A stretch of 64,000 bases of DNA from Acidobacteriota bacterium. Lineage in GTDB: Bacteria > Acidobacteriota > Vicinamibacteria > Fen-336. The notes beneath the pieces are model-generated. The model saw only the letters and a program-made list of their open reading frames with translations. It made no database searches and was not told the origin of the DNA. Location: contig QHVM01000017.1 of assembly GCA_003223555.1 (NCBI GenBank), positions 24,177 to 88,176 on the forward strand. Direction: 5' to 3'. Shown here piece by piece: positions 2,940-38,815 of this stretch. The position numbers were made by a program, and so were the translations under genes. The stretch's first letter is position 1. The number at the start of each line of letters is the position of its first letter.

Positions 2940-2947
2940 GCGTGTTG

Positions 2948-3023
2948 AGCTGGGGGGTGCTAGCGGCGCACCCCCCAGACCCCCCGCTCGCTGCGCCGGA
3001 CTGAATCCGGCTCCGCTCGCAAG
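2948..3023 (+). repeat. Intergenic two-hairpin repeat, copy 1
   Basis: AGCTGGGGGGTGCTAGCGGCGCACCCCCCAGACCCCCCGCTCGCTGCGCCGGACTGAATCCGGCTCCGCTCGCAAGC; stems CTGGGGGGTGC/GCACCCCCCAG and GCCGGA/TCCGGC with CTGAA loop. Confidence 0.85.
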
Positions 3024-3030
3024 CTTTGCG

Positions 3031-3101
3031 GCTGGGGGTGCTAGCGGCGCACCCCCCAGACCCCGCGCGCTCCGGCGAAGTGAATTCGCCTTCGCGCGCA
3101 G
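3031..3101 (+). repeat. Intergenic two-hairpin repeat, copy 2 (tandem with copy 1)
   Basis: GCTGGGGGTGCTAGCGGCGCACCCCCCAGACCCCGCGCGCTCCGGCGAAGTGAATTCGCCTTCGCGCGCAG; second stem GGCGAA/TTCGCC with GTGAA loop. Confidence 0.85.
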
Positions 3102-3112
3102 ATGCGAGCGGG

Positions 3113-4221: not shown

Positions 4222-4290
4222 GCGTCGCTCCTTGCGAGAGTAGACGCGGTCCACGCCCGCGCCGCCGTGACGAGCATCACGCCATCGCCA

Positions 4291-4382
4291 ACGAGCAGCG
4301 AGCGAGCGATTCACTCGCGAGCGAGCGACTGGGGGGGAGCACGAATGTGCGCGGGGGGGTGCTTTCGTGGGTTGCACCCCCC
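4291..4382 (-). repeat. Diverged copy of the intergenic two-hairpin repeat
   Basis: On the minus strand GGGGGGTGC-AACCCACGAAA-GCACCCCCC, then GCTCCCCCCCAGTCGCTCGCTCGCGAGTGAATCGCTCGCTCGCTGC. Confidence 0.7.
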
Positions 4383-33016: not shown

Positions 33017-35431
33017 CTAGTGCGTCATCCCGCCCTGGACGTCGCCCAGGGCCGGCGGCGGCACAGGTGGCTCCGCCACCTCCGCCGGCGGCACGGGCGG
33101 CGCCAGGGCGACCTTCAACACCTCGTCCATGTGCTCGACCAGCTCCACCGTCACCGCGTCGAGCACGACCTTGGGGATGTCGGCCAGGTCCTTCTCGTTC
33201 TCCCGGGGCAGCACGATGGTGGTGACGCCGATGCGGTGGGCGGCGAGCAGCTTCTCCTTCACGCCCCCGATCGGCAGCACCTTGCCCCGCAGGGTGATCT
33301 CGCCCGTCATCGCCACCTCGCGCCGCACCGGGATCTTGGTGAGGGCGGAGACGAGGGCGGTGGCGATCGTGATGCCGGCCGAGGGCCCGTCCTTCGGGAT
33401 CGCCCCCTCCGGGACGTGGATGTGGATGTCGGTCCGGCGGTTGAAGCCCGGCGCGATCCCGAGCTGCTCCGCGCGCGAGCGCACGTACGAGAGCGCCGCG
33501 TGGGCCGACTCCTGCATCACGTCGCCCAGCTTGCCGGTCAGGCGGAGGGCGCCCTTGCCGGGCATCAGGGTGACCTCGATGGGCAGGATCTCGCCGCCGA
33601 CCTCCGTCCAGGCCAGGCCGGTGGCCATGCCGATCTCGTTGCGCTCCTCCTGCCGGGAGGCGCGATAGCGCGGCACGCCGAGGTAGGAATCGGTGTTGCC
33701 GGCGCTGATCTCGACCTGATAGCCCCGGCCGTCCAGGACCACCTTGCGCGCGACCTTGCGGCAGATGGACGAGATCTCCCGCTCCATGTTCCGCACGCCC
33801 GCCTCGCGGGTGTAGCGGCGGATGATCTCCTGCAGCGACTCCTCGGTGAAGGAGATGTTCTCCGCGCGCAGCCCGTGGGACTTGAGCTGTTTCGGGATCA
33901 AGTGGCGCTTGGCGATCTCGACCTTCTCCCGCTCGGTGTAGCCGGGCAGGCGCAGCACCTCCATGCGGTCCTGGAGGGGCTGGGGGATCGTGTGGAGCAC
34001 GTTGGCGGTGGCGATGAAGAAGACCGACGAGAGGTCGAACTCGACGTCCAGGTAGTGGTCGGTGAAGCTGTGGTTCTGCTCGGGGTCCAGGACCTCGAGG
34101 AGGGCGGCCGAGGGGTCGCCCCGGAAGTCCATGGACATCTTGTCCACCTCGTCGAGGAGGAACACGGGGTTCCGGGTCCCCGCCTTCTTCATCATCTGGA
34201 CGATCTGGCCCGGGAAGGCGCCGATGTAGGTGCGGCGGTGGCCGCGGATCTCCGCCTCGTCACGCACCCCGCCCAGCGACATGCGCACGAACTTGCGGTT
34301 CGTGCAGCGGGCGATGGACTTGGCGAGCGAGGTCTTGCCCACCCCGGGCGGGCCCACGAAGCAGAGGATCGGTCCCTTCGGCTTGTTCACGAGCTGGCGC
34401 ACGGCGAGGAACTCGACGATGCGCTCCTTGACCTTCTCCAGCCCGTAGTGGTCCTCGTTGAGGATGGCCTCCGCGGCCAGCAGGTCCTTGCGCTCGCGGG
34501 TCCGCTTCGACCACGGCACCGCGATCAGCCAGTCCAGGTAGTTCCGGGACACGGTGGCCTCGGCCGACATCGGCGGCATGGACTCCAGCCGCTTCAGCTC
34601 CTGGAGCGCCCGGTCCTCGGCGTCCTTGGGCATCTTGGCCATCTCGATCTTCTTGCGGAGCTCCTCGATCTCGTTCAGGCGGTCGTCCTTCCGCCCCAGC
34701 TCCTTCTGGATGGCCTTCATCTTCTCGTTGAGGTAGTACTCCTTCTGGGCCCGCTCCATCTGCTTCTTGACCCGGCCCTGGATGCGCTTGTCCACCTGGA
34801 GCTTGTCCACCTCGGCCTCGAGGATGGTCAGGATCCGCTGCAGGCGCTCCTGGGGGGCGAAGATCTCCAGCAGGTTCTGCTTCTCCTCCACCGGGACCAC
34901 CAGGTGGGAGGAGATGGTGTCGGCCAGCTTGCCCGGGTCCTCCACCCGCACCGCGGCCAGCATGGCGTCGTAGTGGAGGTTGTTCGACAGCTTCACGTAC
35001 TGCTCGAAGAGCGCGATGACCTTCGACATCACCGCCTCGACGCCGCTGGCCGTCTCCACCTGCTTGGGGATCAGCTTGACCACCACCCGGAAGAAGCCCT
35101 GCTCCTCCTTGAACTCCAGGGCCCGGCCGCGGTCCAGACCCTCCACCAGCACCTTCACGTTGCCGTCGGGGAGCTTGAGGCTCTGGACGATGTTGCAGAG
35201 GGTGCCGAGGGTGTGGATCTCCTCCGGACCGGGGTTGTCGCGCGTGGCGTCGTGCTGGGCGGAGAGGAAGATGCGCTTGCCCTTCACGAGGGCGTACTCG
35301 AGGGCCTTGATGGAGCTGGGGCGCCCGATGACGAACGGGATCATCATGTGCGGGAACACCACCACGTCCCGCAGCGGAACCATCGGCAGGGTCTCAATCA
35401 CGTCCGTTTTGTCTTTCTCTTTGCCGAACAT
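33017..35431 (-). CDS. lon: ATP-dependent protease La
   Basis: [68 protein letters not shown] catalytic Ser. Confidence 0.98.
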
Positions 35432-35437
35432 TCATTG

Positions 35438-35513
35438 AGCTGGGGGGTGCTAGCGGCGCACCCCCCAGACCCCCCGCGCGCTCCGCGGGAATGAATCCCG
35501 CTCCGCGCGCAGC
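35438..35513 (+). repeat. Intergenic two-hairpin repeat, copy 3, directly upstream of lon
   Basis: AGCTGGGGGGTGCTAGCGGCGCACCCCCCAGACCCCCCGCGCGCTCCGCGGGAATGAATCCCGCTCCGCGCGCAGC. Confidence 0.9.
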
Positions 35514-35595: not shown

Positions 35596-36837
<1,242 letters not shown>

Positions 36838-36840
36838 GTG

Positions 36841-36916
36841 AGCTGGGGGGTGCTAGCGGCGCACCCCCCAGACCCCCCGCTCGCTCCGCGGAAGTGAATC
36901 CCGCTCCGCTCGCAGC
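36841..36916 (+). repeat. Intergenic two-hairpin repeat, copy 4, directly upstream of clpX
   Basis: AGCTGGGGGGTGCTAGCGGCGCACCCCCCAGACCCCCCGCTCGCTCCGCGGAAGTGAATCCCGCTCCGCTCGCAGC. Confidence 0.9.
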
Positions 36917-36932: not shown

Positions 36933-37544
36933 TTATCGCTCTCGCCGAGAGATTACCTGATCAACGATACCATACTCCTTGCCCTGGGCCGCGTCCATGA
37001 TGAAGTCGCGGTCGGCGTCGGCGGCGATCTTCTCCACCGGCTGCTTGGTGTGGAAGGCGAGGATGTGGTTGAGGCGGTCCTTGACGCGCAGGATCTCCTT
37101 GGCCTGGATGGCGATGTCCGAGGCCTGACCCTGGGTCCCCCCCCACGGCTGGTGGATGAGGATGCGCGAGTTGGGGAGCGCGAAGCGCTTGCCGGGCGTG
37201 CCCGCGGCGAGCAGCACGGCGCCGAACGATGCCGCCTGGCCCACGCAGATCGTCTGCACGTCGGGGCGGACGAGCTGCATCGTGTCGTAGATGGCCATCC
37301 CGGCGGTGGTCGATCCGCCCGGCGTGTTGATGTAGACGTGGATGTCCTTCTCCGGGTCCTCGGCCTCGAGGAAGAGGAGCTGGGCGATGATCAGGTTGGC
37401 CACCATGTCGTCGATGGCCGTCCCGATGAAGACGATGTTGTCCTTGAGGAGACGGGAGTAGATGTCGTACGCGCGCTCGCCCCGGGCCGTCTGCTCCACC
37501 ACCATCGGGACCAGCGTGCCCGCGTACGGACTGGACGCGCTCAT
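36933..37544 (-). CDS. clpP: ATP-dependent Clp protease proteolytic subunit
   Basis: [62 protein letters not shown]. Confidence 0.97.
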
Positions 37545-38815
37545 TCGGTGTCCAGTCTAGCATTGGCCCTCAGCAAGTCAAGGGTCTTGTCCTCGCGGAT
37601 GCGCGCGCGGAGCGCGACGAGATCGCCTTCCTTCTCCATCTGACGGCGCAGCGTCTCCTTCGGCTTGCGCAGTCGGTCGGCAAGGCGCGCGACCTCCGCG
37701 TCGACGTCGCCTTCGAGGGCCTCGATGCCCTCGCGGCGCGCGATTTCGTCGAGCAGCACGTCGGCCTTGGCCGCCTTGACCGAGTCCTCGCGCTGCGATT
37801 CGCGGTAGCCCTTCCAGTCGACGCCGGCCCGGGTGGGATCGATGCCCTGATAGAGCAGCCCGCGCGCGGCGTTCTCGGTGCGGGCGCTCATGTGGCGGTC
37901 GACGAGCGCCTCGGGGACCTCGAAGGTGGCCCGCTCGACGAGCGCGTCGACGAGCGCGCCGCGGAGCTCGCGCTCGATCTTGCCCTCCTCGGCCGCGAGC
38001 AGCCGCTTGCGCAGCGCCTCGCGCAGCTCGGCCAGCGACGCGTATTCCCCGAGATCTTTGGCGAACTCGTCGTCGGCGGGGGGCACCACCTTCCTCTTGA
38101 TGTCCTTCAGCGTGACCGTGTAGCCGACTGCGCGCTCGGCCTTGGGCGGCGACTGCTGCGCCGGCTCCATCACGACCCGCACCTGCTTCGTCTCGCCGGG
38201 CGACATGCCGGCCAGGCCCTCGTTCAGCTCCGGGTGGTTGTCCTTGGATCCGACCTCCACCAGCACGTTTTCATCGTGACGGGGCTTTCCCTCCGCGGTC
38301 GTGAACCTGACGTCGAGCATGACGAAGTCGCCGGTCTCGGCCGGACGAGGCTCCACCGGGTCGTAGCGGGCCGCCTGTTCGCGCAGGCGCTCGATCTCCG
38401 CCTCCACCTGCGCGTCGGTCACCTCCGCCTTCCGCGCCTTGACGCTGAGGCCGCGGTACTCGGGGACCTCGACGAGGGGAAGCGTCTCGAAGACCGCCCG
38501 GAAGGTCATGGGCTGGCTCTCGTCGATCTTGAGGTCGGTGACCTTCGGGCTGGCCAGCGGGCGCAGGCCCCGTCCCTCCAGCTCCTCGAACACCACCCGG
38601 TTGACGATAGCCTCCGCGGCATCCTCCAGGACCTGGGCGCGGAAGCGCTGGCGGATCACCTCCGGGGGGACCTTCCCGGGACGGAAGCCGGGGATGCGGA
38701 CCTTGCGCGCGTACTCGCGGGCCCGCTTGTCGATCTCCCTCTCCACGACCTCGGGCTCGATCTCGAAGCTGAGCGACTTGCGGACCGACGTCTCCTCGTT
38801 GTACTCGACCTTCAA
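37541..38815 (-). CDS. tig: trigger factor
   Basis: [47 protein letters not shown]-terminal chaperone helices; overlaps clpP. Confidence 0.95.

Follow-up and report, generated by a model that had tools for sequence, protein, structure and literature searches.

A dispersed palindromic repeat upstream of lon and clpX in a Vicinamibacteria genome, probably a mobile REP-like element inserted beside TTGA-like motifs

The clpX-lon region of the window (the whole 64,000-nt stretch analysed) raises the question of why the start codons of two neighbouring genes should each adjoin a copy of the same hairpin repeat. The genes concerned lie on the minus strand, in the order tig (37541-38815, assigned with Pfam), clpP (36933-37544, from its reading frame and position), clpX (35596..36837, Pfam zf-C4_ClpX and AAA_2) and lon (33017..35431, Pfam Lon_C and LON_substr_bdg), in agreement with the first-pass annotation, which had placed the gene upstream of lon in the same operon. 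That annotation had also located a repeat with its hairpin foot 8 nt from the lon ATG, and its coordinates were confirmed: the lon-proximal copy (35432..35513, plus strand, antisense to lon; model R1 match, 104.7 bits) has 8 nt between the last paired base of hairpin 1 and the ATG (35429-35431). The clpX-proximal copy (36838..36915, GTGA plus a 74-nt core) lies, as had been claimed, in the same orientation, on the plus strand and antisense to clpX, and its hairpin ends 5 nt ahead of the clpX ATG; at both genes there is no Shine-Dalgarno (SD) motif between element and ATG. The two copies share a block of exactly 42 nt (TGAGCTGGGGGG...CCCCCCGC), the length originally given, although it begins at 35436 and 36839 rather than where the lon interval opens. 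The window holds further copies that were absent from the first-pass annotation, a tandem pair at 2943..3102 on the plus strand with its left end just past the stop of a plus-strand gene ending at 2939. A second hairpin repeat family, of the GCGAGCGATTCACTCGCGAGCGAGCGAC type and with a GTGAA-like loop, occurs at 215-263 and 4289-4337 of the window, with six matches across 0.86 Mb of stretches from the window's own genome.

The left junction of the lon copy is occupied by TTGA (35435..35438, plus strand), a target-like tetranucleotide that is TTGA or TCGA in 65 of 93 copies, and is followed by a putative core of about 74 nt (35439-35512, plus strand). Within this core, hairpin 1 (35440..35468, plus strand) has an 11-bp stem, CTGGGGGGTGC/GCACCCCCCAG, and a 7-nt loop, and hairpin 2 (35476..35510, plus strand) pairs GCGCGC-TCC-GCGGGA with TCCCGC-TCC-GCGCGC around the loop ATGAA, the inner arms being, as first described, GCGGGA/TCCCGC at lon and GCGGAA/TCCCGC at clpX. 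The fold of the lon copy was better than those of 200/200 dinucleotide shuffles on each strand (z -3.25 and -4.89). In an alignment of 150 copies, 97.1% of the cells are paired and compensatory changes, with both sides altered, occur at 17 of the 21 pairs; covariation scores 0.231 here, versus 0.076 after shuffling and at most 0.044 with slid partners. Because the model itself guided this alignment and the copies are paralogues, these figures lean toward structure. A small, hand-chosen alignment (A1) agrees, with seven covarying pairs, and the hairpins of the element are genuine; hairpin 2 almost invariably has RTGAA as its loop. Inspection of the sequence ruled out an intrinsic terminator, there being no T-run after hairpin 1 on either strand, and a comparison with Rfam families gave no match to the element, a tRNA being the sole match in the window.

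The same element is dispersed through the genome to which the window belongs, designated G000 (5.39 Mb, 151 contigs). A 111-nt query produced 63 BLAST matches there, and a covariance model trained on 18 copies, some of them out of other genera, produced at least 149. We studied 107 clusters in G000, including tandem arrays of two to four copies, 92 of which fall outside called genes. Seven pairs of clusters are at most 2 kb apart, against approximately 4.2 expected, so that two copies in one operon are unremarkable and a pair such as that at lon and clpX is close to chance. The element is also present in G001, from the same genus, and in further genera of the family; a second family of the same order contains weak relatives, and the other members of the class that were tested yielded no element. 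Where matches to a conserved 26-mer carried names, these were of soil MAGs with the labels Acidobacteria and Vicinamibacteria. The viral contigs, phages and plasmids searched contained no match, and an origin from any of these was discarded for this reason. Hairpin 1 occurs with differing right-hand modules, among them a third type and a longer composite to which a GCGGCGGCGAA-GTGAA-TTCGCCGCCGC hairpin is added, and the hairpin-1 copies without hairpin 2 at sampled G000 loci bear other repeat modules; the family is thus a mosaic. CTCTGCG units make up a third intergenic repeat (L057:13433, L065:2485, L085:4410, L099:5069 and L124:3160), which sometimes adjoins the elements and also occurs at G001 sites that are empty of them.

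The first-pass annotation had offered two readings of the paired copies, shared control of lon and clpX or an insertion bias toward the starts of protease genes. Shared control is contradicted by the relatives: G001 has no copy at either gene, and the lon copy is absent from G004, G005, G006, G007, G009, G010, G011, G012 and G013, that is, from all further members of the family with a readable clpX-lon junction. At the clpX position only G010, from another genus, has a copy, which is diverged and covarying and has the same orientation (L150, approximately 2104-2184); it may be ancient and have been lost in the other genomes, or may have inserted in parallel. These empty sites rule out a conserved lon/clpX switch, and paired hairpins ahead of the two genes are not in themselves evidence for shared control. 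Matching both flanks between G000 and G001 gave 43 comparable orthologous sites, with 8 scored as filled and 35 as empty, although on visual inspection at least two of the latter (L053:15078 and L054:8715) contain a diverged relative and the safer count is 33. Elsewhere, the same intergenic region (L096:4504-4584 versus L206) contains elements whose orientation in G000 is opposite to that in G001, which suggests independent insertions.

The empty sites also bear on how the element enters DNA. At clpX, CATTCGA followed by CCCGGCCC in G001 corresponds to CATGTGA, then GCTGGGG...GCAG, then CTTGGGCC in G000, and the downstream flank aligns base for base (CCCGGCCCTGAGG versus CTTGGGCCTGAGG, three differences in 13 positions), so that an insertion of 74 nt without duplication or loss fits; read from this alignment, the empty site would fit an insertion directly after TCGA with no target duplication. 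At lon, about 16 nt besides the element itself distinguish the filled site from the empty one, so that the exact insertion is not readable there. The G001 flank is kept up to the junction in several other cases, TATTGA being followed by TCCC in G001 and by GCTGGGG in G000, TTTTTGA by CGAT and by GCAGGGG, and GTATA by AGG and by GCTGGGG; flanks also agree up to the junction as GTTCTA/GTTTTA and, at clpX, as TCGA/GTGA, an agreement that, at several stop-codon sites, is to be expected in part from selection on the stop codon. Several other empty sites show no target motif in G001, and the mechanism is at its weakest in this target and junction evidence. Among the 93 copies, the four bases ahead of GCTGGGG are TTGA in 52, TCGA in 13 and TCAA in six, with others making up the rest. 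The presence of TTGA in most copies, even far from genes and within tandem arrays, would also be expected if TTGAG belonged to the element itself, as in a conventional MITE moved by a DDE-type transposase through double-strand breaks and leaving a short target duplication, and a 3-nt TTC duplication can indeed be drawn at lon. Nevertheless, we consider this unlikely: copies that have GTATA, GTTTTA or GTGTTT instead of TTGA resemble the native G001 flank, terminal inverted repeats are absent and the hairpins at the two ends are unlike, and clpX shows no consistent duplication.

Gene context was taken from 0.86 Mb of G000 stretches, with genes called by a simple dicodon finder, so that starts are approximate, with G001 confirming those of lon, clpX and several other genes. 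The left end of the element lies much nearer to gene edges than the right end (median distances 8 and 60.5 nt, n=90, Wilcoxon p 2e-4), with 52 of 90 left ends and 19 right ends at 15 nt or less from a gene. Twenty-five of the 70 intergenic insertions are no more than 15 nt past a same-strand stop and 14 are no more than 15 nt ahead of an opposite-strand start, versus 37 and nine, respectively, of all 298 intergenic TTGA sites (Fisher p 4e-4 within the stop class; p 2e-4 for starts at up to 50 nt). Convergent regions are over-used (convergent, same-direction and divergent, 38/47/11 versus 83/467/98, p 3e-10); a bias of orientation among same-direction genes, 27 antisense versus 17 sense, was unconvincing and was set aside. 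Placement is not random relative to start codons and strand, the outcome that the first-pass annotation had set as its refutation, and the insertion bias is supported in a broader form, with stops and not starts as the main site. A bias arising from selection alone, in which insertion is random and the copies at gene edges survive, would account for the rarity of gene-interior insertions and the favoured convergent regions, but it predicts left/right symmetry, against the 52 versus 19 ends observed, and a depletion just upstream of starts where an excess is seen; we hold it to be improbable.

This excess is explained only in part by the motif, since starts at up to 15 nt receive 20% of insertions and a 10-nt motif learnt from copies off gene edges predicts 9.9% (range of the motif-weighted expectation, 5-10%). 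No SD-like motif stands between element and start in 13 of the 16 start cases at up to 17 nt. A small check on G001 loci found seven of 21 copies at 15 nt or less past a stop and one at 15 nt or less ahead of a start, so that the start preference is not independently replicated. Stop placement fits T-TGA targets plus tolerance; placement at starts is driven by the motif in part, with the remainder unexplained. In four genes (L062:4377, L088:4465, L108:4468 and L117:4526) the stop is the element's own TAG, within hairpin 1; their target has no TGA, and the C-termini end in element-coded residues.

The start-adjacent excess, together with the short SD-free spacers at lon and clpX, could be taken to mean that the hairpin was recruited after insertion as a regulatory RNA or DNA element co-controlling both genes, either by blocking ribosomes or through processing to a near-leaderless mRNA. 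Predicted folding is in keeping with such a role, at -71.5 kcal/mol for lon (-100..+40) versus -40.5 in G001, and at -63.5 versus -49.0 kcal/mol for clpX. However, the lon and clpX copies are not conserved even inside the genus, about 100 other clusters adjoin other genes, placements at stop codons exceed those at start codons, and starts without SD are normal here, an SD-like motif being found in only about 40% of called genes, so that insertion may simply be tolerated. We therefore give co-control little credence.

The number of copies, the pairing of the stems, the empty sites, the target motif and the edge bias were all observed. Beyond these, we consider it likely that the lon feature is a single copy of a palindromic repeat, REP- or MITE-like, that is mobile, non-coding and dispersed, targets TTGA and is biased to gene edges. 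The two-hairpin element of about 74 nt would insert immediately 3' of a tetranucleotide resembling TTGA and leave this target in place without duplicating it, and insertions within genes would be purged, leaving intergenic survivors. Since genes commonly end in T-TGA, many copies would lie at stop codons, where a TGA or TAG of the element itself frequently becomes the stop of the gene, and some insertions, such as those at lon and clpX, would settle just upstream of starts, any effect on the expression of these genes being probably a by-product of insertion. Movement may take place as single-stranded DNA through a Y1-type enzyme (IS200/IS605 or RAYT-like) acting in trans or since lost. Against this reading stand the inexact lon junction, the lack of the motif at several G001 empty sites and the failure to find a transposase. 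Neither Y1 transposases (PF01797) nor REP-associated transposases (NF047646) were found in G000, G001, G003, G007, G008 and G010, the controls, E. coli among them, giving matches; Y2/IS91 transposases (PF04986) matched in G007 and were not found in G000, G001, G003, G008 and G010, nor in the control genomes. These genomes are draft MAGs (G000 is 98% complete), and a gene could be lost at contig ends broken by repeats. It is rather unlikely that TTGA-targeting single-strand palindromes spread here without Y1 or RAYT, by an unrecognised or host enzyme, and truly prefer the bases before SD-less starts, rewiring translation.

The mobile repeat thus proposed can be compared with three known systems. 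Miniature elements derived from IS200/IS605 (PATE type) resemble it in having a hairpin near each end and, in the reading proposed here, in inserting 3' of a retained short sequence without duplication. Members of the IS200/IS605 family insert 3' of a short specific sequence, retain the left flank and do not duplicate the target; clpX and several left-target sites are consistent with this pattern, and lon and others are ambiguous. In contrast to such elements, no IS200/IS605 transposase or full-length partner was found and guide sequences were not identified, and an autonomous IS200/IS605 element with matching ends was likewise missing, with no Y1_Tnp in the same six genomes. Single-stranded hairpins that have a tetranucleotide at their foot are the substrate of RAYT and IS200/IS605 enzymes (PMC8266576, PMC6006769). 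The present element would work in a similar manner. REPs of other phyla are high-copy and intergenic, prefer convergent and same-direction junctions, lie near 3' ends and have termini that supply stops (PMC3733652), and what characterises REPs in general is found here, with at least 149 copies, 92 of 107 clusters outside genes and covarying stems.

The element is similar to the GTAG-REPs and REPINs of Escherichia, Pseudomonas and Stenotrophomonas (RAYT/TnpA-REP) in its short GC-rich hairpins, high copy number and intergenic location near gene 3' ends, and also in its tetranucleotide at the hairpin foot, tandem groups and stop-supplying termini (PMC3733652, PMC8266576). It differs from them in its TTGA-like tag, with no GTAG among 93 copies, in its two dissimilar hairpins in fixed order, and in that element-rich genomes are without a detectable RAYT gene. 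CGTC-tagged REPs, defined by an 8-9 bp stem that has the tag at one end, have no dedicated transposase, and the element is like them a REP-like repeat without one (PMC3733652). Its tag, however, is not CGTC, with only a weak C-N-T-C preference upstream; its stem is of 11 bp; and its tandem copies are direct, unlike head-to-head dimers. A large palindromic repeat family from a barely studied soil phylum, for which no Y1/RAYT transposase was found, poses the same question as the CGTC-type REPs, and its pairs of empty and filled sites in two related genomes allow target choice and loss to be measured. We would class the element as a new REP-like family, known in kind but outside the GTAG/RAYT and CGTC classes.
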